Shown: positions 5,890-23,508 of the stretch, piece after piece | Position numbering within the stretch: position 1 is the stretch's first letter | Layout: each line of letters starts with the position of its first letter | Virus record (IMG/VR): IMGVR_UViG_3300024500_000055 | Span: 1 to 40,058 of that record | Origin: a virus | Direction: 5' to 3' (one strand) | DNA length: 40,058 bases | Translations under genes and position numbers: made by a program | Notes under the pieces: model-generated | Database searches by the model: none | What the model was told of the DNA's origin: nothing | The model's input: the letters and a program-made list of their open reading frames with translations, nothing else

Positions 5890-7476
5890 ATGGCAAAATC
5901 ATTAGATGGCGTATTAATTAAGAAGGCGCATAAACAGCAACGATACACACTTGAAGAAGTTAAACATCTCGAAGCGTGTATGGATCCTGTTACAGGTCCT
6001 CTTTATTTCGCTAAAAATTTTATTAAAATTCAACATCCTGTTCGAGGTAGTATTCCCTTTGAACCGTACGAATACCAAGAACGGTTAATTGAAGCCTATC
6101 ACGGCAACAAACAATGTATTGCTATGTTGCCTCGTCAGATGGGTAAGACCACATGTGCCGTTGCTTACTTACTCTGGTACACAATGTTTGTACCTGATTG
6201 TCAAGTTCTTATTGCCGCACACAAATACGAAGGTGCAAAAGATATTATGGATCGTTACCGTTATGGTTACGAAAACCTTCCAGATTTTATACGTGCAGGT
6301 GTTTATTCATACAATAGAAATACAATCGAATACGATAACGGTGCTCGTATACAAGCAACCACAACTACAGAAAATACTGGTCGTGGTAAATCTCTATCAT
6401 TGATTTATTGTGATGAGTTTGCGTTTGTGCAACCTCCCGAGAAAGCTAAAGAATTCTGGACTGCCCTATCGCCTACACTAGCAACAGGCGGTAAGTGTAT
6501 CATTACATCAACACCTAACTCAGACGAAGATCAGTTTGCGTTAATTTGGACCGAAGCAAACAAAAGATTTGACGAATTTGGCAATGAACAAAAATTAGGA
6601 GTTAACGGATTTCATAGTTATTTTGCCCACTGGAGCGAACATCCAGACCGAGATGACGAATGGGCAAGATTAGAACGTGCAAAAATTGGAGAAGAACGTT
6701 TCCGTCGTGAATTTGAATGTGAATTCTTGATCTTTGACGAAACGTTAATTAACTCAGTTAAACTTGCTGAATTAAAAGGTACTGAGCCTATGTTATCTAT
6801 GGGACAAACACGATGGTACAAAGAGATTAATCCGCAAGCAACATATCTTGTAGCATTAGATCCTAGTTTAGGAACAGGCGGTGACAATGGTGCTATTCAA
6901 GTATTTGAAATGCCCCATATGGATCAAGTAGCAGAATGGTATCATAATTTAACTCCAGTACAAAGTCAAGTAAAAATATTAAGAGAAATTTGTTCTTATA
7001 TCCAGGATCAGGGAGAATTAAAAGGCGGTCATCCTCAAATTTATTATAGTGTTGAAAATAACACTTTAGGTGAAGCTGCTTTAATTTGTATTCAAAATAT
7101 TGGCGAGGAAAATTTCCCCGGATTATTCTTGAGTGAGCCTATACGTAAAGGACATGTGCGTAAATTCCGCAAAGGGTTTAATACTACACATAAGACAAAA
7201 ATTTCTGCATGTAGCCAACTTAAACACATGATTGAAACTCATAAAATGAAGTTATGTTCAAAACCTTTAATTTCAGAGTTAAAAACATTCGTTGCTACTG
7301 GAATTGGATTTAAAGCTAAATCTGGGGAACACGACGACTTAGTGGCTGCATTATTGTTAATAATTCGCATGTCTAGCATACTAGCGGACTGGGACCCTAA
7401 AGTATACGAAAAAATGACTGATAAATTATCAGAAGACCAAATGCCTATGCCGATCTTTGTATCGGGCTTTATGTGA
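5890..7476 (+). CDS. 17: Terminase large subunit, T4 gp17-like
   Basis: The packaging motor ATPase and headful nuclease. The protein is 528 residues (T4 gp17: 610). The ATPase domain has Walker A PRQMGKTT (residues 81-88) and Walker B LIYCDEFAF with catalytic Asp-Glu at 175-176; the coupling motif CIITSTPNS follows. The C-terminal nuclease domain begins near residue 318 with LVALDPSLGTGGDN and carries further acidic residues (YYSVENNTLGE; GEHDDLVAALLL) typical of the RNase H-like terminase nuclease. It is alone between a terminator and another late-type promoter. The small subunit gene is separated from it by three structural genes. Confidence 0.95.
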   Translation: MAKSLDGVLIKKAHKQQRYTLEEVKHLEACMDPVTGPLYFAKNFIKIQHPVRGSIPFEPYEYQERLIEAYHGNKQCIAMLPRQMGKTTCAVAYLLWYTMFVPDCQVLIAAHKYEGAKDIMDRYRYGYENLPDFIRAGVYSYNRNTIEYDNGARIQATTTTENTGRGKSLSLIYCDEFAFVQPPEKAKEFWTALSPTLATGGKCIITSTPNSDEDQFALIWTEANKRFDEFGNEQKLGVNGFHSYFAHWSEHPDRDDEWARLERAKIGEERFRREFECEFLIFDETLINSVKLAELKGTEPMLSMGQTRWYKEINPQATYLVALDPSLGTGGDNGAIQVFEMPHMDQVAEWYHNLTPVQSQVKILREICSYIQDQGELKGGHPQIYYSVENNTLGEAALICIQNIGEENFPGLFLSEPIRKGHVRKFRKGFNTTHKTKISACSQLKHMIETHKMKLCSKPLISELKTFVATGIGFKAKSGEHDDLVAALLLIIRMSSILADWDPKVYEKMTDKLSEDQMPMPIFVSGFM

Positions 7477-7482
7477 TAAATA
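7475..7482 (+). promoter_or_regulatory. T4-late-type promoter (GATAAATA)
   Basis: GATAAATA (one mismatch to TATAAATA) overlaps the gp17 stop codon and ends 4 bases before the ATG at 7487. No ribosome site is visible, so the transcript is predicted to be leaderless or to start one base inside the start codon. Confidence 0.65.
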
Positions 7483-7486
7483 CAGA

Positions 7487-9202
7487 ATGGACGCTACAAA
7501 CAATATTGCTACAGATTTATTTTATAAAATTAGAAGCCGCTTTAAAGGGTTAAAGCTAGGTTCAGAAACCAGCGAAATTACAATAAACCCAGAAGAAGCA
7601 AGATTTTTTGATTTTGATTACATGGAAGGTGAAACACCTGTAGGCCATGTTAGCATCAGCCTAGCTGAACCAAACTCTATGAAGGTATATTTCAGTACAG
7701 GAATTACTGAATCAATGAACGATCTTCAAAAGAAGAATTGGTTTGGATTTTTAAGAGAATTAAGATTATTTGCTAAACGTAGGTTAATGGCGTTTGATAC
7801 TCGTGACATTACTAAAGACAATTTAGATAAACGAGATTATGCATTTTTAAGCCGCCATAATTCACCAGAACCTGCGGTTACAACACAACCAACACCAGTC
7901 GGAGAAAGCACAATGAATGTTACTGAAAGCACAATGTACGGATCTAAGACCGTAAGCTATCAAAAACTAATGGATACACGTTTGATTATTAAACATAGTC
8001 AAGCATTAACAGACGATCAAGCACCAGGTGCTAGAACACGTAATATTTCAGCATTATTTGTTGAAAACCAAGACGGTGAAAGATTTAAATATCCTTTCAT
8101 TCATTTAGCAGGAGCTCGTGCTATGCAACGTCACGTGGCTAATGGCGGTGTACCATACGACGATATTGGTAAATCAATTGTACAAATGAGCGAAGAAATT
8201 GCTCAACTAAAAAGTTTTAGCAACTATGTTGTTCGTAATGATTTAATGAATTCAGATACAAACAATATTGTTGAAAGAAGCGGAGAGGCTCTAAATAGAC
8301 TACGTGAACAAATTAAGGCACTATCTAAACAAAGTCATTACGAAGCATATAGAGAAAATTTCCAGGCATACGATAGTGAAGAAATACCACAAGACGTTGT
8401 AGAAGATTTTAAAGAAAAATTTACCGTTAGAAATTTTAAAGAAGACATTGCTAATGTATTTCCGGTCTTATATAGACTAATGAAAGAAGGAAACACGATA
8501 GGCTACGACGACATAGTCGCAATGACCAACAATGCCGCTGTCGAAGAAGAAACATTTGAAATGGAAAATTATGATCCATTTGAAAAATTTGAAAACTGGG
8601 TTTATCAATTAGGTGAAGCAAGCCCTATTCAAGATCCCGATCAAAAAGACGCAGCGATTAAAGAATTACAAGAATTAGTTGGACAACATTTTCCAGCAGG
8701 TGTAGATGGTAGCAATGCCATTGAAAGTTTAAAAGGCATCATTGAAGATCCTAAACTTGACCAAGCCATTAAAGATAAGGCAAAAGAAGATCCAGAGGCA
8801 TGTTGCAGAGGGTTGGTTAAAGATTGGTTAGAACAAAACGCACCAGATGTAGTCGGCCAATTAGATTTTGGTGACTACTCAGAAGAAGAACCCGAAGCAG
8901 GAGGCGAAGAAGCACCCGAAGACGAACCTCAAATGGCCAGTGACGACAATGAGCAAGGAAAAGAGCGTACAGCAATTAATGTTCAAGAACTTGCAGAGTT
9001 TATCACAAGTTTCTATGATAAGGAATCTAATACATTCCCTAAAGGCCCAGAGGGTGTTTGCACAATGGTAGGCAAGAAGTTTGGTGAGCAGGCAGAACAA
9101 GTTGCTCGTAAATTTGTAGAAAGAATGGCACCACAACAATCAACAGAACAAAATCCTGAATTAGCAGAATTGGCAAGAGTTAGAGAATTAGCAGGCCTAT
9201 AA
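7487..9202 (+). CDS. Large conserved virion-associated protein of marine T4-type phages, function unknown
   Basis: A 571-residue protein starting MDATNNIATDLFYKIRSRF. An upstream in-frame ATG at 7457 lies inside gp17, and the 7487 start fits the late-type octamer. I recognise the N-terminal 120 residues (EARFFDFDYMEGE, VSISLAEPNSMKVYFS, NWFGFLRELRLFAKRRL) and the segment ISALFVENQDGERFKYPF as a block conserved near terminase genes in marine T4-type phages, without a proven role. A helical, Glu-rich part follows (about 290-400), then an acidic linker (EEEPEAGGEEAPEDEP, about 463-480) and a C-terminal helical domain. No signal peptide, membrane segment or enzyme motif is seen. A structural role is inferred from context. 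Confidence 0.75.
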   Translation: MDATNNIATDLFYKIRSRFKGLKLGSETSEITINPEEARFFDFDYMEGETPVGHVSISLAEPNSMKVYFSTGITESMNDLQKKNWFGFLRELRLFAKRRLMAFDTRDITKDNLDKRDYAFLSRHNSPEPAVTTQPTPVGESTMNVTESTMYGSKTVSYQKLMDTRLIIKHSQALTDDQAPGARTRNISALFVENQDGERFKYPFIHLAGARAMQRHVANGGVPYDDIGKSIVQMSEEIAQLKSFSNYVVRNDLMNSDTNNIVERSGEALNRLREQIKALSKQSHYEAYRENFQAYDSEEIPQDVVEDFKEKFTVRNFKEDIANVFPVLYRLMKEGNTIGYDDIVAMTNNAAVEEETFEMENYDPFEKFENWVYQLGEASPIQDPDQKDAAIKELQELVGQHFPAGVDGSNAIESLKGIIEDPKLDQAIKDKAKEDPEACCRGLVKDWLEQNAPDVVGQLDFGDYSEEEPEAGGEEAPEDEPQMASDDNEQGKERTAINVQELAEFITSFYDKESNTFPKGPEGVCTMVGKKFGEQAEQVARKFVERMAPQQSTEQNPELAELARVRELAGL

Positions 9203-9224
9203 TAAAAAGAAAATACAATAGTTA

Positions 9225-9248
9225 GGGCACTTAGGTGCCCTTTCTTTT
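9225..9248 (+). terminator. Rho-independent terminator after the 571-aa gene
   Basis: A 6-bp stem GGGCAC/GTGCCC with a TTAG loop is followed by TTTCTTTT. It begins 23 bases after the stop codon of the preceding gene and closes the virion cluster. Confidence 0.85.
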
Positions 9249-9298
9249 GGGCAAAATAATTTAAACTTTTTAGTCAACGTTCGGTCCTATTAATGCGT

Positions 9299-9304
9299 TA
9301 TAAT
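9299..9304 (+). promoter_or_regulatory. Possible sigma70-type -10 element
   Basis: TATAAT lies between a terminator and the first small secreted-protein gene, about 45 bases before its ATG. I see no good -35 element at the right distance, so activity may need an activator or be weak. Confidence 0.4.
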
Positions 9305-9349
9305 ATTACACAGGCACTGATTGTCTGTGCTTTTAAAAAGGAAATTACT

Positions 9350-9523
9350 ATGAAACTAGTAGCAACTTTAGTAGCATCATTATTTGCAGTATCCGCTTTC
9401 GCTGCAGATGCACCTAAGAAAGAAGAAAAGAAAGCAGAAGCCAAACCAGCTGCATCTGCGCCAGCACCTGCTGCTAAGGAAGCTCCAAAAGCTCCTGCTA
9501 AGAAAGAAGAAGCTAAGAAGTAA
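9350..9523 (+). CDS. Small exported Ala/Lys/Pro-rich protein
   Basis: A 57-residue protein. The start at 9350 is chosen because AAGGAAA lies 6-7 bases upstream and the N-terminus is a clean signal peptide, MKLVATLVASLFAVSAFA, cut probably before ADAP. The mature part is about 38 residues made almost only of Ala, Lys, Pro and Glu (KKEEKKAEAKP, APAPAAKEAP). Such short Ala/Lys-rich exported proteins are common in betaproteobacterial genomes, so acquisition from a host is possible. It is the first of three consecutive genes with signal peptides. A role in the periplasm or envelope during infection is inferred; function unknown. Confidence 0.8.
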   Translation: MKLVATLVASLFAVSAFAADAPKKEEKKAEAKPAASAPAPAAKEAPKAPAKKEEAKK

Positions 9524-9531
9524 TTTTAGTT

Positions 9532-9562
9532 GCCCCTTGTCAACGAAAGTTGGCATTGGGGC
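9532..9562 (+). other. Structured intergenic hairpin with GAAA tetraloop
   Basis: Outer stem GCCCC/GGGGC (9532-9536 with 9558-9562), a small internal loop (TT against ATT), inner stem GTCAAC/GTTGGC with one G-U pair (9539-9544 with 9549-9554), and a GAAA loop. There is no T tract after it, so it is not a typical terminator. It could be a processing or stability element between two secreted-protein genes. Confidence 0.6.
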
Positions 9563-9567
9563 GTTAC

Positions 9568-9573
9568 TATAAT
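9568..9573 (+). promoter_or_regulatory. Possible -10 element before the second secreted-protein gene
   Basis: TATAAT lies just after the hairpin and 15 bases before the ATG at 9589. No convincing -35 is found 16-18 bases upstream, so this is weak evidence. Confidence 0.35.
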
Positions 9574-9588
9574 ATCAAGGAGGGTTTT

Positions 9589-9885
9589 ATGAAAAAACTC
9601 TTAATTGCAGGTTTAATTGGTTTATCTGCTTTTGGTGCGCAAGCAGGTCCACATCATGGCTATCATGGCGGACACCATATGCATCATGGGAGAGGTTGGA
9701 ATTGGGTAGTTCCAGCTGTAGTTGGAGGTGCTGTGGTATATGCCGCAACTCGTCCTGTAGTTGTTCAACAACCGCCAGCGGTTATTCAACAACCGCCCGT
9801 TTATACGCAACAACAAGTATGTAGTCCTTGGACTGAAGTGCGCAATCCAGACGGTAGTGTAACACTTACAAGGACTTGTCAATAA
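9589..9885 (+). CDS. Small exported His/Gly- and Gln/Pro-rich protein
   Basis: A 98-residue protein. The start at 9589 is fixed by a strong ribosome site (AAGGAGGG) 4 bases upstream and a signal peptide MKKLLIAGLIGLSAFGAQA cut before GPHH. The mature protein has a His/Gly-rich stretch (HHGYHGGHHMHHGRG, possible metal binding), a hydrophobic segment (WVVPAVVGGAVVYAA) that may insert into a membrane or be a second hydrophobic core, a repeated QQPP unit, and a C-terminal WTEVRNPDGSVTLTRTC motif. This layout is common in small envelope proteins of beta- and gammaproteobacteria. Function unknown; the phage may have taken it from a host. Confidence 0.85.
   Translation: MKKLLIAGLIGLSAFGAQAGPHHGYHGGHHMHHGRGWNWVVPAVVGGAVVYAATRPVVVQQPPAVIQQPPVYTQQQVCSPWTEVRNPDGSVTLTRTCQ
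9764..9797 (+). repeat. 13-bp direct repeat, period 21
   Basis: TTCAACAACCGCC occurs at 9764-9776 and again at 9785-9797, in frame, encoding the repeated QQPP unit of the secreted His/Gly-rich protein. It could permit copy-number change by slippage. Confidence 0.85.
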
Positions 9886-9903
9886 TGTTAATGAGGACTA
9901 GAA

Positions 9904-10308
9904 ATGAAAAGGTTAGCAGTAATCTTAGCTGCGATGAGTTTAATTGGGACAAGCCAGGCAAATACGAGTCTCAATGGGAAAGAACTCTTTGGGAGACCTA
10001 CAACTATAGAGTCACCAGCTCAGATTGCGATCAAAAAAGGACCGGTCCTTGCAAGATCTATCAAAATACAAAAACCTAAAATTTTTACAGGCAATCCTCA
10101 CAAAATTGTTTTATTTGCAGATGACAGCGAAGATAACATTATTGAAGTTGACGATATCATTACATCTTATCGAAGAAAAGATCTACAAAGAATTCAAACA
10201 GACCCAACACCGGATGATCCTGAAGGTTTAATTACTGAAGAAATCCGGTGGAAATTATTTTTAGCAAGAACAGCGGCTATGATTCGTTATCACCAAATCC
10301 ACTCATAG
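9904..10308 (+). CDS. Exported small protein, function unknown
   Basis: A 134-residue protein with a signal peptide MKRLAVILAAMSLIGTSQA, cut probably before NTSL. GAGGA lies 8 bases before the ATG. The mature part has no recognised domain: a Lys-rich segment (IAIKKGPVLARSIKIQKPK), an acidic patch (ADDSEDNIIEVDD) and a helical end (EEIRWKLFLARTAAMIRYHQ). It is the last of three exported-protein genes in a row. Its stop codon lies inside the loop region of the following terminator, an economical arrangement. Confidence 0.75.
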   Translation: MKRLAVILAAMSLIGTSQANTSLNGKELFGRPTTIESPAQIAIKKGPVLARSIKIQKPKIFTGNPHKIVLFADDSEDNIIEVDDIITSYRRKDLQRIQTDPTPDDPEGLITEEIRWKLFLARTAAMIRYHQIHS

Positions 10309-10322
10309 AGTGGATTTTTTTT
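10295..10322 (+). terminator. Rho-independent terminator overlapping a stop codon
   Basis: A 10-bp perfect stem AAATCCACTC/GAGTGGATTT with an ATA loop is followed by T residues to 10322. The stop codon TAG of the preceding gene (10306-10308) lies at the loop. It isolates the exported-protein genes from gp32. Confidence 0.93.
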
Positions 10323-10347: not shown

Positions 10348-10376
10348 TTGATCTTGCTAAATAAAAAGCGCATAAT
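10348..10376 (+). promoter_or_regulatory. sigma70-type promoter for gp32
   Basis: TTGATC (10348-10353) and CATAAT (10371-10376) are 17 bases apart, a good fit to the host consensus. A late-type core GCTAAATA (10356-10363) sits inside the spacer, so both early/middle and late use are possible, as for T4 gene 32. The leader to the ATG is about 50 bases and ends in the strong ribosome site AAGGAGG. Confidence 0.65.
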
Positions 10377-10433
10377 AGTTGTTATGCGATAGGCATAAAG
10401 TCATTTACATTAAAGGCATAAGGAGGCTATAAA

Positions 10434-11414
10434 ATGGCAACATTAGCAGAAATTCGTGCTAAACTTCAAGAAGCACAATCAAAGTCCACAGGACAAACAT
10501 CAAGCGGCGGCGACAACGCAATTTACCCACATTGGAACATGCAAGAAGGCAAGGAAGCCGTAGTTCGTTTCCTACCAGATGGCAATTCTAACAACACATT
10601 TTTCTGGGTTGAACGTGCAATGATCAAATTGGAATTCGCAGGAATTAAAGGCGAAACCGATTCACGTAAAGTTCAAGTACAGGTTCCCTGTGTTGAAATG
10701 TATAACGATGGTTCCGTATGTCCAATCCTTTCAGAAGTGCGTGGTTGGTTTAAAGACAAATCATTAGAGGATATGGGTCGTAAATATTGGAAAAAGCGTT
10801 CATATATCTTCCAAGGCTTTGTTGTTGAAGATGCTCTCAAAGAAGAAAAAACACCAGAGAATCCAATTCGCAGATTCATCATCGGTCCTCAAATCTATCA
10901 AATCATTCGTTCAGCACTAATGGACCCAGAGTTGGAAGAACTACCAACTGATTACCTCCGCGGTGTAGATTTCCGTATCGCAAAAACAAGCAAAGGTGGT
11001 TTTGCTGATTATTCTACAAGTAAGTGGAGCCGTCGTGAACGTGCTCTAACCGATGCAGAAAAATCCGCAGTTGATACCCATGGTTTGTTTAACTTGTCAG
11101 ACTTCTTGCCTAAGAAGCCAACCGATGTTGAGCTTAAGGTTATGAAAGAAATGTTTGAAGCATCAGTTAATGGCGAAGCATATGACATGGACCGTTGGGG
11201 TCAATACTTCAAACCAGCAGGCATGGGTGCTGCAACAGGCGATCCTAACAAAGCTCGCTCAAGTGCTCCTGCTGAAGAAGTTGACGAAGAACCTACTCCT
11301 GTAGCAAGTGCTCCGGCAGCTCAGTCTACTCCTGTAGCAAGTGCTCCGGCAGCAGAAGGTGCTAGTCGTGCGCAAGACATTCTTGCCAAGATTCGCGCTC
11401 GTCAAAGTCAATAA
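10434..11414 (+). CDS. 32: Single-stranded DNA-binding protein, T4 gp32-like
   Basis: Coats single-stranded DNA at forks and recombination intermediates and organises the replisome. The protein is 326 residues (T4: 301). The OB-fold core begins near residue 30 (YPHWNMQEGKEAVVRFLPDG; FFWVERAMIKLEF) and continues past VDFRIAKTSKGGFADYSTSKW, typical of gp32. In T4 a zinc is held by one His and three Cys; here only C86 and C96 are obvious in this region, so the zinc site may be reduced or absent. The C-terminus is acidic and Ala/Pro-rich with an 11-residue repeat, followed by AQDILAKIRARQ. It has its own promoter and an SD sequence; UvsX follows. Confidence 0.93.
   Translation: MATLAEIRAKLQEAQSKSTGQTSSGGDNAIYPHWNMQEGKEAVVRFLPDGNSNNTFFWVERAMIKLEFAGIKGETDSRKVQVQVPCVEMYNDGSVCPILSEVRGWFKDKSLEDMGRKYWKKRSYIFQGFVVEDALKEEKTPENPIRRFIIGPQIYQIIRSALMDPELEELPTDYLRGVDFRIAKTSKGGFADYSTSKWSRRERALTDAEKSAVDTHGLFNLSDFLPKKPTDVELKVMKEMFEASVNGEAYDMDRWGQYFKPAGMGAATGDPNKARSSAPAEEVDEEPTPVASAPAAQSTPVASAPAAEGASRAQDILAKIRARQSQ
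11293..11353 (+). repeat. 28-bp in-frame tandem repeat, period 33, in gp32
   Basis: A 28-base sequence beginning CTACTCCTGTAGCAAGTGCT is present at 11293-11320 and identically at 11326-11353. It encodes two copies of TPVASAPAA in the gp32 C-terminal linker, a recent duplication. Confidence 0.93.
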
Positions 11415-12783: not shown

Positions 12784-13239
12784 ATGAATTGGTATGATCG
12801 AGTTTCAAAGGACATCTCAAATATCCCTGATGCAGTGGCATACTATGAGGCTGAATTATTGGCAGCAAAGAATGATGCTCGCATAGCGGGAAATATTGAA
12901 AAGGCCGCTGCCAGTATGCCCGGCATTGTTGAAAATCGATTCAATCAGCTTCAAGAAATTGAAGCAATTCTCGAATATCTTAATATTGAACTTCGTAGAC
13001 TTCGAAGTCAACATTTTCGTAAGTACCTTGAAAACTATCAACGTGCTTTGTCCTCTAGAGATTGTGAAAAATTTGTAGAGGGCGAAGCCGACGTTGTAGA
13101 CTTTGAAAAAATTATCAATGACTTTGCTTTGCTACGTAACAAATGGTTAGGTATCATTAAAGGTCTTGACATCAAGCAATGGCAATTATCTAACATTGTT
13201 AAATTAAGAACAGCTGGCCTGGAAGATGCTACTCTATGA
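12784..13239 (+). CDS. Helical protein next to uvsX; recombination-mediator candidate
   Basis: A 151-residue, mostly helical protein starting MNWYDRVSKDISNIPDAVAYYE. Blocks such as EKAAASMPGIVENRFNQLQEIEA, YLNIELRRLRSQHFRKYLENY and FALLRNKWLGIIKGLDIKQW suggest a long coiled helical fold. The helical content, size (T4 UvsY is 137 residues) and position right after uvsX would fit a UvsY-like mediator that loads UvsX onto gp32-coated DNA, but I see no diagnostic motif, so this is a hypothesis. It starts 0 bases after the previous stop (TAAATG) and overlaps the next gene by ATGA. Confidence 0.6.
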   Translation: MNWYDRVSKDISNIPDAVAYYEAELLAAKNDARIAGNIEKAAASMPGIVENRFNQLQEIEAILEYLNIELRRLRSQHFRKYLENYQRALSSRDCEKFVEGEADVVDFEKIINDFALLRNKWLGIIKGLDIKQWQLSNIVKLRTAGLEDATL

Positions 13240-14045
13240 AAATAGGAATTATTGGTCTAGGTTTTGTTGGAGAAGCAATTTATTGGGCACATCGTAATGA
13301 TGAAAGAGTAGTTCGAGATCCAAAATTTGAAGATAGTGCCGACTATGAAAAATTCTTAGATTGCGACGGAATCTTTATTTGTGTTCCAACTCCAGCTTTA
13401 GACAATGGTAGTTGTGATGCCTCTATTCTTGAACAGGTTTTAAAAGAATTATATAATGCAGGCATTAGCGAAAAAATACCGTTAATATGCAAATCGACAG
13501 CAACTCCTAGCATATACAATCAACTTTTAAAAGAATATCCTTCAATAATTCATTGCCCAGAATTTTTAACTGCGGCTAATGCTAGCGCCGATTATCAAAA
13601 TAGTAGATATTTTATTCTAGGCGGTAACGGAGAATTATGTGTTACTGCTAGAGATGTTATTCGATCAGGTGTTCCTCTAGTCCACAGGCAATTTTTAGTT
13701 ACTGATATTAAGTCTGCTGCCTTATACAAGTATATGATGAATGCGTACCTTGCCACTAAGGTAACATTTATGAATGAATTTTATAAGTTAGCAAAGGCAG
13801 AGAATGTAAGTTTTGAATCGTTAAAAGATCTAACCATTTATGATGATCGAATTGGTTATACACATTTAAATGTTCCCGGACCAGATGGAAAATTTGGTTG
13901 GGGTGGCATATGCTTTCCAAAAGATATTAGTGCTATTCAAACAGAAGCGTCTAGTCTAGGAATTGATTTAGAATTATTAAAACAAGTTAACAACATCAAT
14001 AATAAAGATAGAAATATTGAGTTGTTTTTTAGCTCAACGCCTTGA
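13236..14045 (+). CDS. Nucleotide-sugar dehydrogenase (UDP-glucose/GDP-mannose type), shortened
   Basis: NAD-dependent dehydrogenase that would oxidise a nucleotide sugar to a uronic acid. The Rossmann motif GIIGLGFVG is at residues 4-12; the central CPEFLTAANA, the helix ALYKYMMNAYLATKVTFMNE and the catalytic block FGWGGICFPKDI with Cys226 follow in family order. The length is 269 residues; typical members have 390-450 and a third, C-terminal domain that completes the nucleotide-sugar site, which is missing here. It overlaps the - strand glycosyltransferase gene by 17 bases at its 3' end. It is coupled (ATGA) to the uvsX-side genes, and so may be expressed with them. Activity on its own is uncertain. 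Confidence 0.85.
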   Translation: MKIGIIGLGFVGEAIYWAHRNDERVVRDPKFEDSADYEKFLDCDGIFICVPTPALDNGSCDASILEQVLKELYNAGISEKIPLICKSTATPSIYNQLLKEYPSIIHCPEFLTAANASADYQNSRYFILGGNGELCVTARDVIRSGVPLVHRQFLVTDIKSAALYKYMMNAYLATKVTFMNEFYKLAKAENVSFESLKDLTIYDDRIGYTHLNVPGPDGKFGWGGICFPKDISAIQTEASSLGIDLELLKQVNNINNKDRNIELFFSSTP

Positions 14046-14676
14046 TACAAAATTCGTCAAGATGTTGTAATTTCCATTGATCCCAAATTTCGTGGTCAGG
14101 ATGTTTTAAAGTTTTTAACTCTTTGTATGTGTTGTCCAATTCAGCTTTGTCAAATCGATAATGCGCATGTTCAACAACTACATCTGAAAGATATTTTAAA
14201 ATTTCTGGATTTCTTTTAGTAAGCTCTTTCCAAGGAAGTTCAACACAATAATGGGTGCATACAGGTAAAGCAAACCATCCAATTTTTCTTATCAAATCTC
14301 CCCCTATACAAGGATGACAGCAGTTTTGTGGCTTTCTTGTTAAATCATTACATTGAGATATAAAATTATTAGAAGCAGCAATTACAAGTTTTTGATCCCA
14401 ATTTTGAGTTTGTGGGATTAAATCGTCTGCTAGTAATCCATACCACGGTTCGTTTGGATACCTTTCAACCATCTCGTTCATTGCCCGTCCTAACCTGGCT
14501 CGAGATTCTATTACAACATGAAATTCTTTTGGATAATTTAATTTTTTATAATTTTCAATTTCTGGATCGCATTCATCTAATCTAATATAAACTGGAGTTG
14601 ATCCTTTAGTTTCTTTCCAGCATTTAATAAACCGTTTTAGGTTCTTTGGTCTTCCGCGACTTGCTAATACCCACAT
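14029..14676 (-). CDS. GT-A type glycosyltransferase-like protein
   Basis: A 215-residue protein. The opening MWVLASRGRPKNLKRF is typical of GT2-like phage transferases, and GLLADDLIPQTQNWD (about 80-94) contains an acidic Asp-Asp in the position of the DxD metal/nucleotide-sugar motif. Several Cys and His residues (CCHPCIGGD; CTHYC) are unusual. The C-terminus (VVEHAHYRFDKAELD) is a common end in this group. AAGGAT lies 7 bases before the ATG on the - strand, and a late-type AATAAATA lies 23 bases upstream. It is transcribed toward the nucleotide-sugar dehydrogenase. Confidence 0.7.
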   Translation of the reverse strand: MWVLASRGRPKNLKRFIKCWKETKGSTPVYIRLDECDPEIENYKKLNYPKEFHVVIESRARLGRAMNEMVERYPNEPWYGLLADDLIPQTQNWDQKLVIAASNNFISQCNDLTRKPQNCCHPCIGGDLIRKIGWFALPVCTHYCVELPWKELTKRNPEILKYLSDVVVEHAHYRFDKAELDNTYKELKTLKHPDHEIWDQWKLQHLDEFCIKALS

Positions 14677-14699
14677 ATTCTAATCCTTAAAATGCCAAA

Positions 14700-14716
14700 T
14701 ATTTATTTTATAAATA
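14700..14716. promoter_or_regulatory. Back-to-back late-type promoters at a divergent gene pair
   Basis: On the + strand an exact TATAAATA (14709-14716) ends 4 bases before the ATG at 14721. On the - strand AATAAATA (14707-14700) lies 23 bases upstream of the ATG at 14676. The two octamers are adjacent and point outward, so the site probably drives both the - strand transferase and the + strand seven-gene operon. Confidence 0.75.
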
Positions 14717-14720
14717 GTTC

Positions 14721-15449
14721 ATGAAAAACATTTTGATATACACTATTTTTAGAAATTCTAGTCAAAAAATAGAACAATATTATTCTCAAATAAAATCAAT
14801 AGTTGAGCATTTTCCTAATTATAATTTTTATATTTCTTTGTATGAAAACGATTCAACTGATGATACCAAAATTAAATTGAATAATTTAGATTGGTCCTTC
14901 GCTAAAGATTTTTCTATTATCTGCGAAAATATAGGAACAGAATTTTTTCATTCTGTTAAAGATGAACAGCGTGTAAAAAATTTAGCAGCAGCAAGAAATA
15001 AAGCAATCGAAGCAAAAAATTTTCTTAACAATGTAGATCATATATTAGATATTGAATCCGATATGAGATTTGATCTACAAGATGTTGAAAAAATTTTAAA
15101 TTTTCAAGAAACATATAATTTAACAAAAGTTGATATTGTATCAATGGTTTCAAAAGGAACAAACGGAAAATTATATGATGTTTGGGCTACACGAAGACAC
15201 GCCGACGAAGACAGAGGAAAATTACATAAAGATTGGGATATTACTCCTTTTGGAAAATATTATTCAACATGTAACGGAGTATGCTTATTTGATGCAAAAC
15301 CATTTCAGGACGGTGCACGGTACGGCTGGTTTAATGAAAGATTTAAAAAATTTGATTGCGATACTTCAATTATTTGCGAAGAATTTCATCTTCGCGGCTA
15401 CTCGGAAATTTATATAAACCATACGGCAATTTGTTACCATGATCAATAA
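14721..15449 (+). CDS. Glycosyltransferase, CMT1 (alpha-1,3-mannosyltransferase)-like
   Basis: A 242-residue protein. ISLYENDSTDDTKIKL (about 41-56), the block NLAAARNKAIEA (about 91-102) and ILDIESDMRFD (about 111-121) match the cryptococcal mannosyltransferase 1 (GT69) pattern, where a DxD-like acidic motif follows an AxARN helix. The end CDTSIICEEFHLRGY is also typical of this group. It would transfer a sugar, perhaps mannose, from a nucleotide donor. It is the first gene of a seven-gene operon and starts immediately after an exact late-type octamer, without a ribosome site. It overlaps the next gene by 11 bases. Confidence 0.75.
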   Translation: MKNILIYTIFRNSSQKIEQYYSQIKSIVEHFPNYNFYISLYENDSTDDTKIKLNNLDWSFAKDFSIICENIGTEFFHSVKDEQRVKNLAAARNKAIEAKNFLNNVDHILDIESDMRFDLQDVEKILNFQETYNLTKVDIVSMVSKGTNGKLYDVWATRRHADEDRGKLHKDWDITPFGKYYSTCNGVCLFDAKPFQDGARYGWFNERFKKFDCDTSIICEEFHLRGYSEIYINHTAICYHDQ

Positions 15450-16623
15450 ACCACCAATACTAAAATGGCCTTTAATGAAAGATACAATTACTTGGCCAGA
15501 CAAATTTAAAATGATCAAGTTCATTTTAACTTCAAAAAAATTCACTAACGGAGAAAAAGTAAAATTATTTGAGGCTCAGTGGAATGAATGGTTAGGTTCT
15601 AAATATTCTTTATTTGTTTCGTCTGGCAGCACAGCAAATTTATTATTATTATCTGCTATTAAAGAGTTATATAATTTTAAAGACGGGGATAAAGTTTTAG
15701 TTCCTGCGTGTACATGGGTCACAAACGTTGCCCCAGTAATTCAAACTGGATTTAAACCAATCTTTGCAGATATTGATTTATCAACTTTTAGTTACGATGT
15801 TGAAAAGTTAAAAAAATTAAAAAATAAACATAAAGACATTAAAATAATATTTGTCACACATCTGTTGGGCTTAGATGCTGAAATAGAAAAATACAAAGAA
15901 ATATTTCCAGATGCGCTCATACTAGAAGACATTTGCGAATCACACGGTGTTTGCGATCCTAATAACAAAAAAAGAGGTTCAGATTCTTTAGGGGCAACTT
16001 TTAGCTTTTATTTCGGCCATCACATGACTACCGTTGAGGGAGGAATGATTTCCACAAACAATCAAGAATTATATGAATTGATGAGATTAAAAAGAAGTCA
16101 CGGTCTAGCTAGAGAAGGATCTCCCGAATATTTTAAAAAATATCAAGATGAATATCCAAACTTGCCTCCTAGTTTTCTGTTTATGACAGACGGATATAAT
16201 TTTAGAAATCATGAGTTACCTGCAATTTTAGGTATGTCACAACTAAAAAGATTGGATAGCATGATTCATATCCGTAAAGAAAATTTTAAAAAATATTTAA
16301 AAATTATTAAACAATATCCTGATAAATTCTTTTTTCCTAAAGAAGATGAAACTAATAGTAGTTTCTGTTTTCCTTTTATTTGTAAAAGTAAAGAAACATA
16401 TATAACACTATTAGACGAATTTAAAAAACACGGCATCGAATATCGGCCTGTAGTAAGTGGAAATTTATTAAAACATCCATTTTTAAAAAAATATAATATT
16501 GAAACAGACAGCCCTCATAATGCCGACATATTACACGATGTTGGTGTTTATATTGGAAACAATCATTTTGTTAATGACAACGATTTACTATTACTAGAAA
16601 CTATTTTGAAAGGACTAAAATGA
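15439..16623 (+). CDS. DegT/DnrJ-family PLP enzyme with His in place of the PLP lysine (ColD/RfbH-like dehydratase)
   Basis: A 394-residue fold-type I PLP enzyme of the sugar aminotransferase family. SSGSTANLLLLSA (61-73), VPACTWVTNVAPVIQTG (88-104), FADIDLSTFSYD (109-120) and LEDICESHG (162-170) are the standard blocks. In aminotransferases the sequence SFHxxKxxTTxEGG has the PLP-binding Lys. Here it reads SFYFGHHMTTVEGG, with His194 at the lysine position. A His there is the hallmark of ColD (GDP-4-keto-6-deoxymannose 3-dehydratase) and of the RfbH/E1 dehydrases. With Gmd in the same island, a ColD-like role is likely. An amine donor would still be needed. Alternative: a PLP-binding protein with a different reaction. 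Confidence 0.85.
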   Translation: MINKPPILKWPLMKDTITWPDKFKMIKFILTSKKFTNGEKVKLFEAQWNEWLGSKYSLFVSSGSTANLLLLSAIKELYNFKDGDKVLVPACTWVTNVAPVIQTGFKPIFADIDLSTFSYDVEKLKKLKNKHKDIKIIFVTHLLGLDAEIEKYKEIFPDALILEDICESHGVCDPNNKKRGSDSLGATFSFYFGHHMTTVEGGMISTNNQELYELMRLKRSHGLAREGSPEYFKKYQDEYPNLPPSFLFMTDGYNFRNHELPAILGMSQLKRLDSMIHIRKENFKKYLKIIKQYPDKFFFPKEDETNSSFCFPFICKSKETYITLLDEFKKHGIEYRPVVSGNLLKHPFLKKYNIETDSPHNADILHDVGVYIGNNHFVNDNDLLLLETILKGLK

Positions 16624-17381
16624 AAAATATAGTGTTAGTTACTGGAGGATTTGATCCTATTCATTCTGGCCATATTGCTTATATTAATGAAGCTAAAAAA
16701 TTAGGTGATGTTCTAGTTGTTGGTGCAAATTCCGATGCATGGTTAAGAAGAAAAAAAGGTCAAGAATTTATGCCTTGGGAAGAACGTTCAAGCATATTAG
16801 GCGCTTTAACAAATGTATCTCGAGTTATTAATTTTAACGACGACGACGGTTCAGCTAAAGATGCTATTAGAAAAGTTCGTGAAATTTATCCCAACGATAA
16901 AATTATATTTGCTAACGGCGGTGATAGAACAAATGCTAATATTCCCGAAATGGATATTAAAGACGATAATTTAGAATTTGTATTTGGAGTTGGCGGCGAA
17001 CATAAGATGAATTCTAGCTCATGGATTTTACAAGAATGGAAAGCACCAAAGACCGAACGTCCGTGGGGATATTATCGTGTCTTGCACGAAGTACCAGGAA
17101 TGAAAGTAAAAGAACTAACCGTTGATCCTGGAAAAAAATTAAGTATGCAACGACATAAATTAAGAGCAGAATACTGGATAGTCAGCGACGGTGAAGCAGA
17201 AGTAAACAGACTAATGAACAGCGGTTACGCTATGCCTAGCGTTCATTTAAGAAAGCACGTTGAGTACAAAGTACCAGTTAACGAGTGGCATCAACTTACT
17301 AATCCGTTTGATGTTCCTGTGAAAGTTGTTGAAATTCAATACGGTGAACAATGCATTGAAGATGATATAGAAAGACAATGA
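16620..17381 (+). CDS. Fusion: cytidylyltransferase-fold nucleotidyltransferase + ManC-type cupin
   Basis: A 253-residue two-domain protein. Residues 1-140 are a cytidylyltransferase-fold domain (RfaE C-terminal/TagD type): GGFDPIHSGHIAYINEAK contains HxGH (H15-H18), and NSSSWILQ (131-138) is at the place of the second nucleotide-binding motif. Residues about 146-250 are the cupin of type II mannose-6-phosphate isomerases: RPWGYYRVL, PGKKLSMQRHKLRAEYWIV and VPVNEWHQLTNPFDVP. The GDP-mannose pyrophosphorylase domain normally joined to this cupin in ManC is absent. The fusion may activate and isomerise a sugar phosphate for the island; the substrate is unknown. It overlaps both neighbours by ATGA. 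Confidence 0.85.
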   Translation: MKNIVLVTGGFDPIHSGHIAYINEAKKLGDVLVVGANSDAWLRRKKGQEFMPWEERSSILGALTNVSRVINFNDDDGSAKDAIRKVREIYPNDKIIFANGGDRTNANIPEMDIKDDNLEFVFGVGGEHKMNSSSWILQEWKAPKTERPWGYYRVLHEVPGMKVKELTVDPGKKLSMQRHKLRAEYWIVSDGEAEVNRLMNSGYAMPSVHLRKHVEYKVPVNEWHQLTNPFDVPVKVVEIQYGEQCIEDDIERQ

Positions 17382-18193
17382 AACAGATGACCAATTGGAT
17401 CTTTCTTAGTAAAGACGGACAAGATGAATATATCAACATGTTTGCACTTGGCGCTAATGGTCGAGTGATAAACACAGATGATTTTATATATGAGCACAGC
17501 AGAGACCCCATTGTCCTTAGAGGTATTCTTAAGAAAAAAATCATGCAACGTTGTTGGTTTGATAATAGAGATTTTTATTTTATGGATACCGGATATATGG
17601 GTAATCAAAAAAGTGCATTAAATCCCATGGGTTGGAAATATTGGCATAGGATTGTTAAAAACGATATACAACACGGAAATACTATAATTCAAAGGCCAGA
17701 CGATAGATTTAGAAAATTAGGAATTCCTATTCACAATTGGAAAAAAGGCGGCAAAAAAATTCTTATTGCAGCCCCTGATGAAAAACCTTGTAAGTTTTAT
17801 AATATTGATTTAGAAGAATGGATCAACGATACTATCTATACTCTTAAACAATATACAGATAGAGAAATTGTTGTACGCCAACGAGTTAAAAGCAGAACAG
17901 ATCGTGTACTTACAAATACGTTAAAAGAAGCACTTGATGACGATGTTCATGCGTTAGTTACATATAATTCAAATTCAGCAACCGAAGCAATTTTATACGG
18001 ATATCCTGCATTTACGCTAGCACCTACACATGCAGCTTCTCCTGTTGCATCACAAGATTTGAGTCAAATCGAAACTCCGTACTATCCCGACAAAGATAAA
18101 GTATATGCATGGGCTTGCCATTTAGCCTACGGACAATATCACATTGATGAATTAAAAAATGGCGCAGCCTGGAGAATGTTAAATGAATTTTGA
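17378..18193 (+). CDS. GT-B/capsule-polysaccharide-like transferase, paralogue 1
   Basis: A 271-residue protein. Together with the genes at 19607 and 23509 it forms a paralogous set with the same C-terminal layout: a YTDREIVVR strand, a VTYNSNSATEAILYGYPAF motif and a tail with PYYPDKDKVYAWACHLAYGQ. The middle and end of each resemble the second Rossmann half of capsule polysaccharide/Kdo transferases; the N-terminal halves differ. It is transcribed in the operon after the nucleotidyltransferase-cupin fusion, overlapping it by ATGA, and overlaps the next gene by 11 bases. A glycosyl-transfer role is inferred from similarity and context. Confidence 0.65.
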   Translation: MKQMTNWIFLSKDGQDEYINMFALGANGRVINTDDFIYEHSRDPIVLRGILKKKIMQRCWFDNRDFYFMDTGYMGNQKSALNPMGWKYWHRIVKNDIQHGNTIIQRPDDRFRKLGIPIHNWKKGGKKILIAAPDEKPCKFYNIDLEEWINDTIYTLKQYTDREIVVRQRVKSRTDRVLTNTLKEALDDDVHALVTYNSNSATEAILYGYPAFTLAPTHAASPVASQDLSQIETPYYPDKDKVYAWACHLAYGQYHIDELKNGAAWRMLNEF

Positions 18194-19610
18194 TTTTTTA
18201 CCTGTTTATATCGGTTACGATTCTAGAGAAGATATTGCATATAAGGTATGCGAATTTTCAATCTATAAAAATACACCTGATGCTATTGTTAAGCCTTTAA
18301 AACAGGACCAATTAAGACGAGACGGTCTATATACAAGAGATGTCGATTCTTTAGGAAGCACCGAATTTACATTTACTAGATTTTTAGTGCCATCTTTACA
18401 AAAATACAAAGGTTGGGCTTTATTCTGCGATTGTGATTTTGTTTGGGACGGTAACATATCAGAATTATTTGCTCAAGCAGATCCAAAATATGCTGTAATG
18501 GTTGTTCAACATAATCATCAACCAACAAATACCGTAAAGATGGACAACAAACAACAGGCCCAGTATCCAAGAAAGAACTGGAGTTCGATGATTTTATGGA
18601 ATTGTGAGCATCCATCAAACAGAGCATTAACACCAGAGGTGGTAAATTCTCAAACAGGACAATTTTTACATAGGTTCCAATGGTTACAGGATCACGAGAT
18701 TGGTTCTGTTTCAACAAAATATAATTTTCTTGTCGGATGGAATGATGAAACAAAAGACGGAAAGCCTGTTGCATACCACTGGACTGAGGGCGGACCTTGG
18801 TTCCCCCATTACATGGATTGTTTATATAAAAATGTATGGTATCAATACTTAATTGATTATGCTAATGAGTTGGGATTAGAATTTGGTTCTAAGCCTCGTC
18901 CTCCATTGACGTTTGTTACTAGTCTTTCTAGAGATTATTTTAACGAAGTAGGTAGTATTACACTTGCATCTTGGAGAAATACATTACCGGGCGATGTTGT
19001 TTTTGTTTGGGATGACAAACCTGTAGATCTAGGATTTGGTAAAAATTTTATGTTCTGGAAAGATGTTGCTAATACACAGGACCCTTGGGTTCAAGAAGCA
19101 ATGGGAGGAACTAAAGCAGATAGATTCTGGAAAAAGAGTCGTGTACAGGTATGGGCAGCAAGAAAATTTGGTGGTCTTGTAGTTTGGTTAGACGCTGATA
19201 TTTCTGTTAAACGTCCCTTATCTTTCTCAAAAGCAAAAGAATTACTGAGCCCCGGCGCTCGAGTATGTGCAACATTAATTCCTGGTACGGGGTTAGATTT
19301 AGAAACTGGAATTGTTGCGTTTAATACAAAACACGAAGCATTTCCGGCATTTATTAGAGAATATTCTACTGGTTGGTATAATGGACAAATTTATCAACAA
19401 AGGCAAATATACGATAATCATATGCTAGGGTCTTTAATAGGAAAATATGGAATTGGTTCTTATTGCGATACAGCAGATAAGTGGCAACTCAATGGCGCCG
19501 ATGAACGAAAAAATGAATTTTCCATTAAGTACAGCCCGTTGAATGAATATTTTCATCATCACATTGGTATTCTAAATAAAGAACTTTTAATTAAAAATAC
19601 TAATAAATGA
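18183..19610 (+). CDS. Two-domain glycosyltransferase (fused GT8-like and DAD-type domains)
   Basis: A 475-residue protein with two GT-A domains in a row. Domain 1 (about 1-230): VYIGYDSREDIAY, then GWALFCDCDFVWDG with DxD at 83-85 and a His/Trp-rich stretch (YHWTEGGPWFPHY). Domain 2 (about 241-475): FVTSLSRDYFNEVG, then GGLVVWLDADISVKRPL with DxD at 337-339, ending near FHHHIGI. Domain 2 is related to the separate proteins encoded at 20542 and 21251 (both with WLDAD/WMDAD and a GFSAVNTKH- or GIVAFNTKH-type block). Two transfers by one protein, or one active and one substrate-binding domain, are possible. Part of the seven-gene operon. Confidence 0.8.
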   Translation: MNFDFLPVYIGYDSREDIAYKVCEFSIYKNTPDAIVKPLKQDQLRRDGLYTRDVDSLGSTEFTFTRFLVPSLQKYKGWALFCDCDFVWDGNISELFAQADPKYAVMVVQHNHQPTNTVKMDNKQQAQYPRKNWSSMILWNCEHPSNRALTPEVVNSQTGQFLHRFQWLQDHEIGSVSTKYNFLVGWNDETKDGKPVAYHWTEGGPWFPHYMDCLYKNVWYQYLIDYANELGLEFGSKPRPPLTFVTSLSRDYFNEVGSITLASWRNTLPGDVVFVWDDKPVDLGFGKNFMFWKDVANTQDPWVQEAMGGTKADRFWKKSRVQVWAARKFGGLVVWLDADISVKRPLSFSKAKELLSPGARVCATLIPGTGLDLETGIVAFNTKHEAFPAFIREYSTGWYNGQIYQQRQIYDNHMLGSLIGKYGIGSYCDTADKWQLNGADERKNEFSIKYSPLNEYFHHHIGILNKELLIKNTNK

Positions 19611-20545
19611 AATTTGCAGCATACCTAGCTTGTATTCCTCCTAACAACAAAAATGTTGAAAAAGGAGAAATTTTAAAATTATATGCCACTGGGGTTCAAA
19701 AATACGGTGACGAAGTTGAACTTGTGACCGACATGCGAGTTGTTCCTGCTGACGTAGGTATGAGCATAGGATGGGTTCATGCAGGATCTAAAGGAACTGC
19801 ACATTTAGAATTTAGAAGAAAAATCATTGATTATCAACTTAATGCAAATAAAAAAGTTTTATTGGCAGATAGTAATTTATTTTTATATAAAGATAATACA
19901 AATCCTAAACATTATTTAAGATATAGTTTTAACGGAATATTTCCTAATACAGGAGAGTATTGCGATAAAGAAATTGATCCTCAACGTTGGATAACTCTTT
20001 CTAAAAATTTAAATTTATCTTTAAAAGACTATCGCACTACAGGAAATCACATTTTATTTTGTTTACAACGAAATGGCGGATGGTCGATGGGTGGATATGA
20101 TGTGGTAGAATGGACCGCAGCAACCTTAAAAGAGATTAGAAAATACACTGATAGAGAAATTGTATTAAGAGCACATCCAGGTGACAAAGGCTCAAAAGAT
20201 TATTTAAGTCCTCAAAACTTGATAAAAAAACTTGGTCACAAAAATAACAATATTAGGTTATCACAACCAGGCACAACACTAGAACATGATTTAAAAAATT
20301 GCTGGGCTGTGGTAAATTATAATTCAAGTCCAACCGTAGGAGCCGCAATTGAAGGATATCCTATTTTTGTCACCGATCCTGAAAAAAGTCAGTGTGCAGA
20401 AATTTCAAATATGAATTTATCTGACATTGAAAATCCTAATTTACCAGACAGACAAAAATGGGTAGAACGGTTGGCTATGTTCCATTGGAACTTTGAAGAA
20501 ATTACCAACGGGGAATGTTGGTCTCATATGAGAAAGTATGTATGA
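19607..20545 (+). CDS. GT-B/capsule-polysaccharide-like transferase, paralogue 2
   Basis: A 312-residue protein, the longest of three paralogues (also 17378 and 23509). The shared C-terminal blocks are IRKYTDREIVLRAHPG, CWAVVNYNSSPTVGAAIEGYP and SDIENPNLPDRQKWVERLAMFHWNFEEI. The N-terminal half has a short Rossmann-like strand and a GWVHAGSKGT segment. RAHPG followed by NYNSS and a GYP block is the pattern of capsule polysaccharide export/Kdo-type transferases. The gene is joined to both neighbours by ATGA overlaps. Donor and acceptor are unknown. Confidence 0.7.
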   Translation: MKFAAYLACIPPNNKNVEKGEILKLYATGVQKYGDEVELVTDMRVVPADVGMSIGWVHAGSKGTAHLEFRRKIIDYQLNANKKVLLADSNLFLYKDNTNPKHYLRYSFNGIFPNTGEYCDKEIDPQRWITLSKNLNLSLKDYRTTGNHILFCLQRNGGWSMGGYDVVEWTAATLKEIRKYTDREIVLRAHPGDKGSKDYLSPQNLIKKLGHKNNNIRLSQPGTTLEHDLKNCWAVVNYNSSPTVGAAIEGYPIFVTDPEKSQCAEISNMNLSDIENPNLPDRQKWVERLAMFHWNFEEITNGECWSHMRKYV

Positions 20546-21261
20546 AAATAGAAGTTATAACAAGTTTCAACGAATATTATTATAATCTCATCGGAAGAGA
20601 CTCTGTAGAGTCTTGGTTAACATATTGGCCAGAAGAATTAACACTGACTTGCTATGTCGAAGAGTTTCAATTACCAAACATAAACCGAATTAAACAAATA
20701 GACTTTAAAGAATTAGACCCTGCATATGAAATTTTTCAAAATACTAAAGGTATAGGCGGTCAAGAAAGAAAATTTGCTAAAAAATCTTTTAGTTTTATAC
20801 ACGCAATGTTTAACAGCGATGCTGATCGAATTATTTGGTTAGACGCCGATGTTATTACAAAGAAAAAACTTCCTTTAGACTTGTTAAAATCAGTTTTACC
20901 TGACAATGTTCTTAGCACTCACATGGGAGTTACATATTTGTCAGCTAAAGACGGAACTCCTGGTAGATGGTTTGTTCCTGAGACTGGTTTTTCTGCTGTA
21001 AACACAAAACATCCAAACTTTTTTAATTTTAGAAATGAGTATCGTAGACACTTTGTTGAACAAGATTCAAAAAATTTAAGAAGATTTTACGATAACGATG
21101 TATATGGTTATGTTTTTGAAAAAATCGGAGCAAAAGGCAATGATTTATGCAAAGATTTTAAAAAGCCTTACAAAACTCCAATGAAGCATACCGTGCTTGG
21201 GGAATATTTAGATCATTACAAAGCCAAGCATTCAAAACACGAATATCAAATTACTGAGTAA
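20542..21261 (+). CDS. GT-A glycosyltransferase with WLDAD motif
   Basis: A 239-residue protein. The start at 20542 gives an ATGA overlap with the gene before; a longer reading from 20515 is less likely. Key features are MKIEVITSFNEYYYN at the N-terminus, IIWLDADVITKKKLPLD with DxD at 101-103, and PETGFSAVNTKHPNFFNF (about 147-164), which corresponds to the substrate-binding block in its relatives. It is homologous to domain 2 of the 18183 protein and to the - strand gene it meets head-on at 21251, with an 11-base convergent overlap. Last gene of the late operon. Confidence 0.8.
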   Translation: MKIEVITSFNEYYYNLIGRDSVESWLTYWPEELTLTCYVEEFQLPNINRIKQIDFKELDPAYEIFQNTKGIGGQERKFAKKSFSFIHAMFNSDADRIIWLDADVITKKKLPLDLLKSVLPDNVLSTHMGVTYLSAKDGTPGRWFVPETGFSAVNTKHPNFFNFRNEYRRHFVEQDSKNLRRFYDNDVYGYVFEKIGAKGNDLCKDFKKPYKTPMKHTVLGEYLDHYKAKHSKHEYQITE

Positions 21262-23052: not shown

Positions 23053-23465
23053 AATTGTCCTAATAATCGTTTCTTTTTCCATAGTTGACGATGAGTGTCG
23101 AGTTCAACTAGTTCATAATGCATTTCTTCAATTAGCCACTTTGAAAAACGTTTATGTATATATTCCCCTGAAAGTATCATAACCAGCGGTTTTGAATTTT
23201 TTAATATTGGTGTAATATTTGGCATTTCTTTAATATTTTCAGGATTAATAAGTATAAAATTTACTTCCGGTAATTTGGCCATATCGTTAAAGTTTTCAAA
23301 ATAGATTACGTTTCTATTTTTAAACGACTGATCTATAGAAGAAAATACAAATACAGATTGAAAAACGTTTGATGCTGTTTCAATCTCGCTAGGCCCTAAT
23401 CCCAATAGAATAGTATTTTGGGGCTTTCCTACTTTCTTTCTTAACGTTTTTTCAAATTTACTCAT
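23049..23465 (-). CDS. Small alpha/beta protein before gmd, unknown
   Basis: A 138-residue protein. It begins MSKFEKTLRKKVGKPQNTILLGLGPSE, where ILLGLGPSE looks like the first strand and Gly-rich loop of a Rossmann-like fold, but no further motif identifies it. Later strands (VNFILINPENI, PLVMILSGEYI) are consistent with a small alpha/beta sheet. It is the first gene of the - strand operon, behind an exact TATAAATA octamer 23 bases upstream, and overlaps gmd by ATGA. A role in sugar metabolism or transfer is inferred from position only. Confidence 0.55.
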   Translation of the reverse strand: MSKFEKTLRKKVGKPQNTILLGLGPSEIETASNVFQSVFVFSSIDQSFKNRNVIYFENFNDMAKLPEVNFILINPENIKEMPNITPILKNSKPLVMILSGEYIHKRFSKWLIEEMHYELVELDTHRQLWKKKRLLGQL

Positions 23466-23488
23466 TGAATTAGAATTAAATACTCTGT

Positions 23489-23496
23489 TATTTATA
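23489..23496 (-). promoter_or_regulatory. T4-late-type promoter (exact TATAAATA) for the gmd operon
   Basis: On the - strand the exact octamer TATAAATA lies 23 bases before the ATG at 23465. The + strand gene at 23509 starts just beyond it, so the 43-base gap is a divergent control region. Confidence 0.75.
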
Positions 23497-23508
23497 ATTC
23501 AAAAAACT

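Follow-up and report, generated by a model that had tools for sequence, protein, structure and literature searches.

The window, i.e., the whole stretch of DNA analyzed (G000; a viral record of 40,058 bases), carries three small genes on the + strand, each with an ATG start codon, a Shine–Dalgarno-like site, a signal peptide, and relatives elsewhere: SP1 (9350–9523; 57 aa, rich in Lys, Ala, and Pro), SP2 (9589–9885; 98 aa), and SP3 (9904–10308; 134 aa, with a conserved helical C-terminal tail). They were the sole ORFs in the 40 kb to pass a crude signal-peptide rule (ATG, Shine–Dalgarno-like site, hydrophobic core, AxA-like site, and at least 40 aa), in agreement with a preliminary description of this DNA. 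In SP2, the signal peptide is followed by a His/Gly-rich part, a hydrophobic Gly-rich core, a PVVVQQPP linker, and an end with two Cys, and in SP3 by a linker and the conserved tail. The count of three proved incomplete, since a fourth gene, ORF4 (9885–10079, + strand; 64 aa), overlaps the third in another frame and came to light in the alignment of relatives, where another reading frame is conserved beneath the SP3 signal peptide. Two promoter-like elements on the + strand had also been missed: AGTCAAC-N16-GCGTTA at 9272–9300, 78 nt 5' of the SP1 start, and TGTCAAC-N16-GCGTTA at 9538–9566, 51 nt 5' of the SP2 start. At the level of sequence, comparison of relatives showed that there are four conserved genes at the locus, the fourth concealed by the overlap, and that the fixed-spacing element, which their families share across many phages, is nearly confined to them in the viral contigs scanned.

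A hairpin scan detected terminator-like hairpins on the + strand 3' of the gene for a 581-aa virion structural protein (9224–9241) and at the end of SP3 (10295–10317). Both stems were retained in the relatives L009 and L017, the first with changed bases. The three terminator-like hairpins found in the region are not above chance (mean of 3.0 in shuffles). What is presumed to be the SP1 leader contains a small hairpin (9309–9329, + strand; −10.4 kcal/mol, z −1.68); it is weak because 11 of 200 shuffles were equally good. An Rfam search gave zero matches. There is also a hairpin-like repeat between the SP1 and SP2 genes, but its bases are those of the promoter-like element, and a separate role for it was therefore discarded. 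An inverted repeat, GCGCATAATAGTTGTTATGCG, identical in L009 and L017, was observed 5' of ssb at 10369–10388.

The virion protein gene (7457–9202; match to phrog_13484) and that of the large terminase (5890–7476; phrog_36964) lie on one side of the SP genes, and ssb (10434–11414; phrog_1192) on the other. The window also carries a UvsY-like gene (phrog_231) and uvsX, annotated as RecA/UvsX-like in relatives; among the 25 matches listed of 2660, those nearest to the window UvsX belong to jumbo phages of 337–490 kb (60–71% identity). A long series of genes at 13236–24348, which we take from their translations to be sugar-nucleotide/glycosyltransferase-like, was also observed. Records of up to 219 kb are identical to the window across the SP region, and close relatives maintain the order virion protein, SP1, SP2, SP3, ssb, and uvsX, with an additional gene 5' of SP1 in one group. 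In L019/L228 and several other loci, SP1 and SP2 are absent from the position between the virion protein gene and ssb. The annotated jumbo phage GAP32 carries the terminase, virion protein, ssb, and UvsX-like genes in the window's order, with zero annotated genes at the virion protein–ssb junction, and because of this junction the SP module appears to be an accessory insert relative to GAP32. This, together with the module's own promoter-like elements, agrees with the proposal that it stands apart from the virion and replication genes. Phage morons are accessory genes that bring a promoter and a terminator of their own. The module resembles them as an additional unit between genes adjacent in GAP32 that carries its own promoter-like elements and terminator-like hairpins, but it differs in that several families share a single element across many phages.

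Relatives in viral contigs were found at 54 loci for SP1, at 73 for SP2 (alignment gave 99, 80 of them retained), and at 24 in a first and 29 in a later search for SP3. SP1, SP2, and SP3 had zero matches in Pfam, PHROG, and NCBIfam at E 0.05 or better, the few hits being weak and above this value. Neither the ORF4 and SP3 relatives nor the SP2 relatives matched a PHROG, and one of 19 SP2 members matched Pfam DUF6732 (E 0.001). Searching INPHARED by tblastn gave zero matches for SP1–3, ORF4, and a second SP2 member, with a low-complexity filter that may hide SP1. AlphaFold returned no usable fold for SP3 (pLDDT 60, pTM 0.28; confident only for the C-terminal helix) or for ORF4 (pLDDT 54, pTM 0.15). 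In the literature listings searched, nothing was recognizable as the SP/ORF4 module or as phage genes controlled by an ECF promoter of the host. Within the SP2 family, one N-terminal part is combined with at least three kinds of C-terminal module (a two-Cys TRTRTC type, a DVVYIDGVAYRKQ type, and a GYHWEN..VLVxN type), pointing to module exchange. In record G018 (L335, 1501–2000), an SP3-type tail (FIIDDEVTFGRNRK..ELSDYVLARLRQARMLALEKYQEVWG) comes after an SP1 gene, in the +1 frame of SP1, which may reflect fusion, decay, or a frameshift.

Promoter-like element and its use

Allowing no more than one mismatch, we selected 79 distinct sites, which yielded the logo [TA]GT[CA]AAC-N16-[AG]CGTT[AG]. 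Upstream of the ORF4 loci uncoupled from SP2 (n = 19), TGTNAAC was present in 18 and GCGTTR in all 19, and the box offset was exactly 23 in each of the 18 loci with both boxes, a spacing that had not been imposed. Of 26 distinct SP1-family genes, 19 have the element in front of them (no more than one mismatch; 14 exact), and of 52 distinct SP2-like genes, 42 do (up to two mismatches); it is absent from the other 7 and 10, respectively. Some SP2 promoters also contain TTGAC, possibly usable by another sigma factor.

Two forms of the element were then scanned over 2.9 million viral contigs. The strict form, TGTMAAC-N16-GCGTTR-N-TATANTATA, gave 30 sites, all of them before relatives of SP1 (12), ORF4/SP3 (16), or SP2 (2), where the cut loci L320, L324, and L327 were assigned from their first codons; L324, one of the two SP2 sites, also has an ORF4-like frame. 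The second form, GTMAAC-N16-RCGTTAWATANGTATA, cannot match strict-form sites and gave 104 sites, of which 80 were read and counted by eye (56 proteins distinct over the first 40 aa; L409, L439, and others cut). These preceded SP1 (23), SP2 (46, in two cases with an overlapping ORF4-like gene), ORF4-like genes alone (4), glycine-zipper proteins (3), 41-aa ORFs (3), or none of these (1), so that SP1, SP2, or ORF4 relatives followed 73 of the 80 read sites. Across both scans, 103 of 110 readable sites lay before relatives of these three families and 3 before glycine-zipper envelope proteins, and the element is a marker for locating small exported phage genes in unannotated contigs. The 41-aa ORFs (L384, L413, and L442) resemble helix-turn-helix peptides; the one searched had zero Pfam matches over the cut-off.

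In 19 phage records (3.48 Mb), we counted 30 element sites, compared with only two occurrences of the reversed pattern; 29 of the 30 precede the SP1, SP2, or ORF4 families, the exception being G002:189084. Because several records are near-duplicates and most were chosen for carrying the families, the point of this count is the rarity of other sites. Sixteen records have only one or two sites, one (G006) has four, and two have none; G007 and G011 carry an SP2 gene and zero exact sites. In G006 (524,565 bases), two sites lie before SP1-like genes and two before SP2 genes.

An AAC motif at −35 and CGT at −10 are a hallmark of ECF promoters (PMC8103513), and TGTCACA-n16-CGTC, with a spacer of 16 ± 1, is described for ECF41 (PMC3426412). 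The phage element shares with the ECF41 and the canonical EcfG (AAC/CGTT) promoters the AAC upstream, the CGT downstream, and the fixed 16-nt gap, but it occurs in phages and lies almost only before three small-protein families. An ECF sigma factor of the host probably transcribes the module. Reading of the element by a phage-encoded sigma factor or activator, which would make these genes an ordinary temporal class of these phages, seems to us unlikely. Such factors exist in phages, since SU10/phiEco32 carry one annotated as ECF (PMC4281155). ECF-type sigma domains over the Pfam cut-off were found in none of the phage records searched (PF08281, 0 of 19; PF04542, 0 of 17), which had weak PF04542 matches of 12.7–15 bits (cut-off 24). 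As a control, the sigma genes of T4 (14.5 bits) and SU10 (19.3 bits) also scored below this cut-off and that of GAP32 above it (31.4 bits), so a divergent phage sigma factor could be missed in the records searched, whose best match lies at 14–15 bits. However, one or two sites in 16 of 19 records are few for a dedicated factor, and one element serves records of 40 to 525 kb; such low numbers in records of very different size favor a factor supplied by the host. The ECF factors AlgU and SigX are activated upon infection by a Pf4 variant (PMC7693463). In the same source, an ECF response in one host was not elicited by the lytic phage LUZ19, which counts against the host-ECF explanation.

ORF4 and its overlapping partners

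The start of ORF4 overlaps the SP2 stop, and ORF4 overlaps the first 58 codons of SP3, i.e., its signal-peptide half, with SP3 in the +1 frame of ORF4. ORF4 searched alone was found at 50 viral loci, of which 32 were read, corresponding to 23 distinct ORF4 sequences. In 22 of the 23, an SP3-like ORF (110–134 aa) starts in the +1 frame exactly 19 nt after the ORF4 start, with ATG in 20 cases, GTG in L260, and TTG in L267; the exception, L269, has a different start. A divergent 24th pair (L362), found via the promoter-like element, again has its SP3-like start at +19, with zero Shine–Dalgarno-like sites 5' of it. Since a separate start at +19 is available to SP3, a frameshift fusion of ORF4 and SP3 was considered but discarded.

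Eleven columns of ORF4, including C48, D49, K51, and R52, are invariant in 22 sequences, whereas SP3 has zero invariant columns over the shared DNA, M1 and K57 being nearly invariant. We then kept one protein, randomized its codons with the codon use of the window, and checked the other frame. With SP3 kept, the ORF4 frame was expected to be open in 0.38 of 22 sequences and the CD.KR motif to occur in 0.18, compared with 22 seen in each case, the motif count being biased because the ORF4 loci had been found with patterns including this motif. With ORF4 kept, the SP3 frame was expected to be open in 10.8 of 22, compared with 22 seen. Among 13 close pairs, substitutions at ORF4 codon positions 1/2/3 numbered 166/111/217, and in the single-frame SP3 tail 161/70/339. 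As the sequences are related, the recoding and substitution figures are not probabilities, but they indicate that both frames are constrained at the protein level. ORF4/SP3 is a widespread overlapping gene pair, overlooked by one-frame annotation. Four ORF4-like genes (L422, L425, L433, and L446) occur without an overlapping SP3, and hence ORF4 may be the older partner of the pair.

The putatively exported partner of ORF4 varies between phages, being SP2 in L400 (5889–6400), L415, and the cut locus L350, and SP3 elsewhere. In these three loci, the SP2 gene starts at +4 in the +1 frame of an ORF4-like gene, and CPFCDRRRSGLC and APFVIGGVVGYV are encoded by the same bases; the two conserved motifs, CPxCDxKRxGxC of ORF4 and APxVIGGxxGY of SP2, are readings of a single DNA stretch offset by one base. 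L400 and L415, which are identical across the 520 bases read, carry SP1 directly 3' of the pair. When the L400 SP2 protein was recoded, the full ORF4 motif appeared in 1 of 20,000 tries. Stand-alone SP2 genes had no CD.[KR]R in the ORF4-equivalent frame (0 of 52), and 12 of the 52 had open minus frames, none of them ORF4-like. The derivation of both motifs from the same bases points to gene birth by overprinting.

Possible role at the envelope and origin

The occurrence of relatives in many phages behind the same stress-type promoter suggests a small host-envelope module, and an envelope role for its genes is likely. We give even chances to an explanation in which an accessory module of large phages forms two units behind ECF-type promoters, transcribed through a host ECF factor, and encodes small envelope-guarding proteins together with a cytoplasmic ORF4. 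The units would be SP1 and SP2-ORF4-SP3, each behind its own ECF-sigma-type promoter-like element and likely transcribed by the host's RNA polymerase carrying an ECF sigma factor of the envelope-stress type, also from the host; disturbance of the envelope, whether by the infection or by a second phage, would then turn the genes on. With less certainty, SP1, SP2, and SP3 would leave the cytoplasm and, as small proteins that are mostly disordered, guard the envelope from the periplasm or the membranes, while ORF4, which has no signal sequence, would stay in the cytoplasm, and ORF4 and SP3 would be made from one mRNA via two start codons 19 nt apart. Guarding may mean that the envelope is kept intact up to the time of programmed lysis or that a second phage is shut out. 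If so, the host envelope alarm would be the phage's cue for envelope-guarding or exclusion proteins. The phage would possess a response circuit without a sensor of its own, in which the host alarm activates phage envelope genes, and envelope upkeep or closure during the long infection of large phages would become testable by a reporter. More tentatively, diverse large phages may share an envelope regulon placed on the host ECF alarm, in which ORF4 and an exported partner were overprinted and the partner varies.

Three genes behind the element (L391, L427, and L443; the latter two identical in the printed part) encode glycine-zipper 2TM proteins with PF05433 matches over the cut-off, and tblastn of a glycine-zipper protein against INPHARED and PLSDB gave zero matches. 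SP2 is like this kind of protein in its Gly-rich hydrophobic core after the signal peptide. Unlike it, SP2 has a single hydrophobic stretch with His/Gly-rich and PVVVQQPP parts and matches no such model (0 of 19 members against PF05433/glycine-zipper models at E 0.01). SlyB is a member of the PF05433 kind. It is under sigma-E control and guards the outer membrane (PMC13067283), and a glycine-zipper bacteriocin (PMC5380434) is a possible further parallel. The window's SP1 shares a signal peptide and an Ala/Lys/Pro-rich mature part with the acid-shock protein Asr of E. coli, but neither SP1 nor a second SP1-family member had a Pfam match.

The ECF-type element fits an envelope role, singling out neither superinfection exclusion nor lysis timing, both of which the preliminary description had put forward. 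The first, in which SP2 or SP3 would stop, at the membrane, the entry of DNA from a second phage, is a doubtful but arguable candidate, given the export signals of the SP proteins and the position of the module as an accessory insert. The glycine-zipper proteins behind the element touch TraT (PF05818), a surface-exclusion protein, but this match stays below the cut-off (25.7 bits; cut-off 31) and is confined to the glycine-zipper stretch, and SP1–3 match zero known families.

A function in lysis timing is improbable. The spanin genes Rz and Rz1 of lambda form an overlapping, envelope-related pair, and the ORF4/SP3 pair resembles it in its +1-frame overlap, the N-terminal hydrophobic segment of SP3 also speaking for such a function. 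With regard to the membrane anchor and periplasmic coiled coil of an i-spanin, SP3 shows that segment and a C-terminal helix, in a model that is poor overall. However, the order and sizes of the genes differ, ORF4 has neither a signal sequence nor, by eye, a hydrophobic segment, and no lipobox or lipoprotein signal, as in an o-spanin, was seen by eye in SP1–3 or ORF4 (NCBIfam LP_plasma against SP3: 13.4 bits, cut-off 24). Spanin and holin families gave zero matches.

We assign an equally small probability to ORF4 acting as a cis-acting leader that sets SP3 translation, with no function as a protein. The Shine–Dalgarno-like site of SP3 falls within ORF4 codons 3–5 and the 19-nt spacing is fixed, as such a leader would have it, but the invariant C48, D49, K51, and R52 lie far downstream, and the four ORF4-like genes without an overlapping SP3 do not fit.

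Turning to the origin of the module, we compared its composition with that of nine core genes of the window. The GC3 values of SP1, SP2, and SP3 (0.19, 0.22, and 0.28) are phage-like (0.26 for the core genes), and the overall GC of SP1 (0.44) and SP2 (0.46), above that of the window (0.36), is consistent with their Ala/Pro/His/Gly-rich make-up. Two scans of a collection of 84,980 bacterial genomes, run for SP2 only among the four genes, gave 84 and 392 pattern stretches and zero confirmed relatives, and tblastn of SP2 against PLSDB gave zero matches. The view of the preliminary description that the genes are host-like and recently acquired is therefore not supported. A recent capture from the host, to which the higher overall GC of SP1 and SP2, their envelope-type products, and the absence of the module at the GAP32 junction might point, is very improbable given the phage-like GC3, the 73 viral loci of SP2 against none confirmed in the two scans of bacterial genomes, and the diversity of the families among viruses.

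Finally, in L015/L150, the terminase and the virion protein are 99–100% identical to those of the window, SP3 is 76% identical, and ssb 80%. SP2 (97%) lies at the switch in identity, which would correspond to recombination or to a chimeric assembly.
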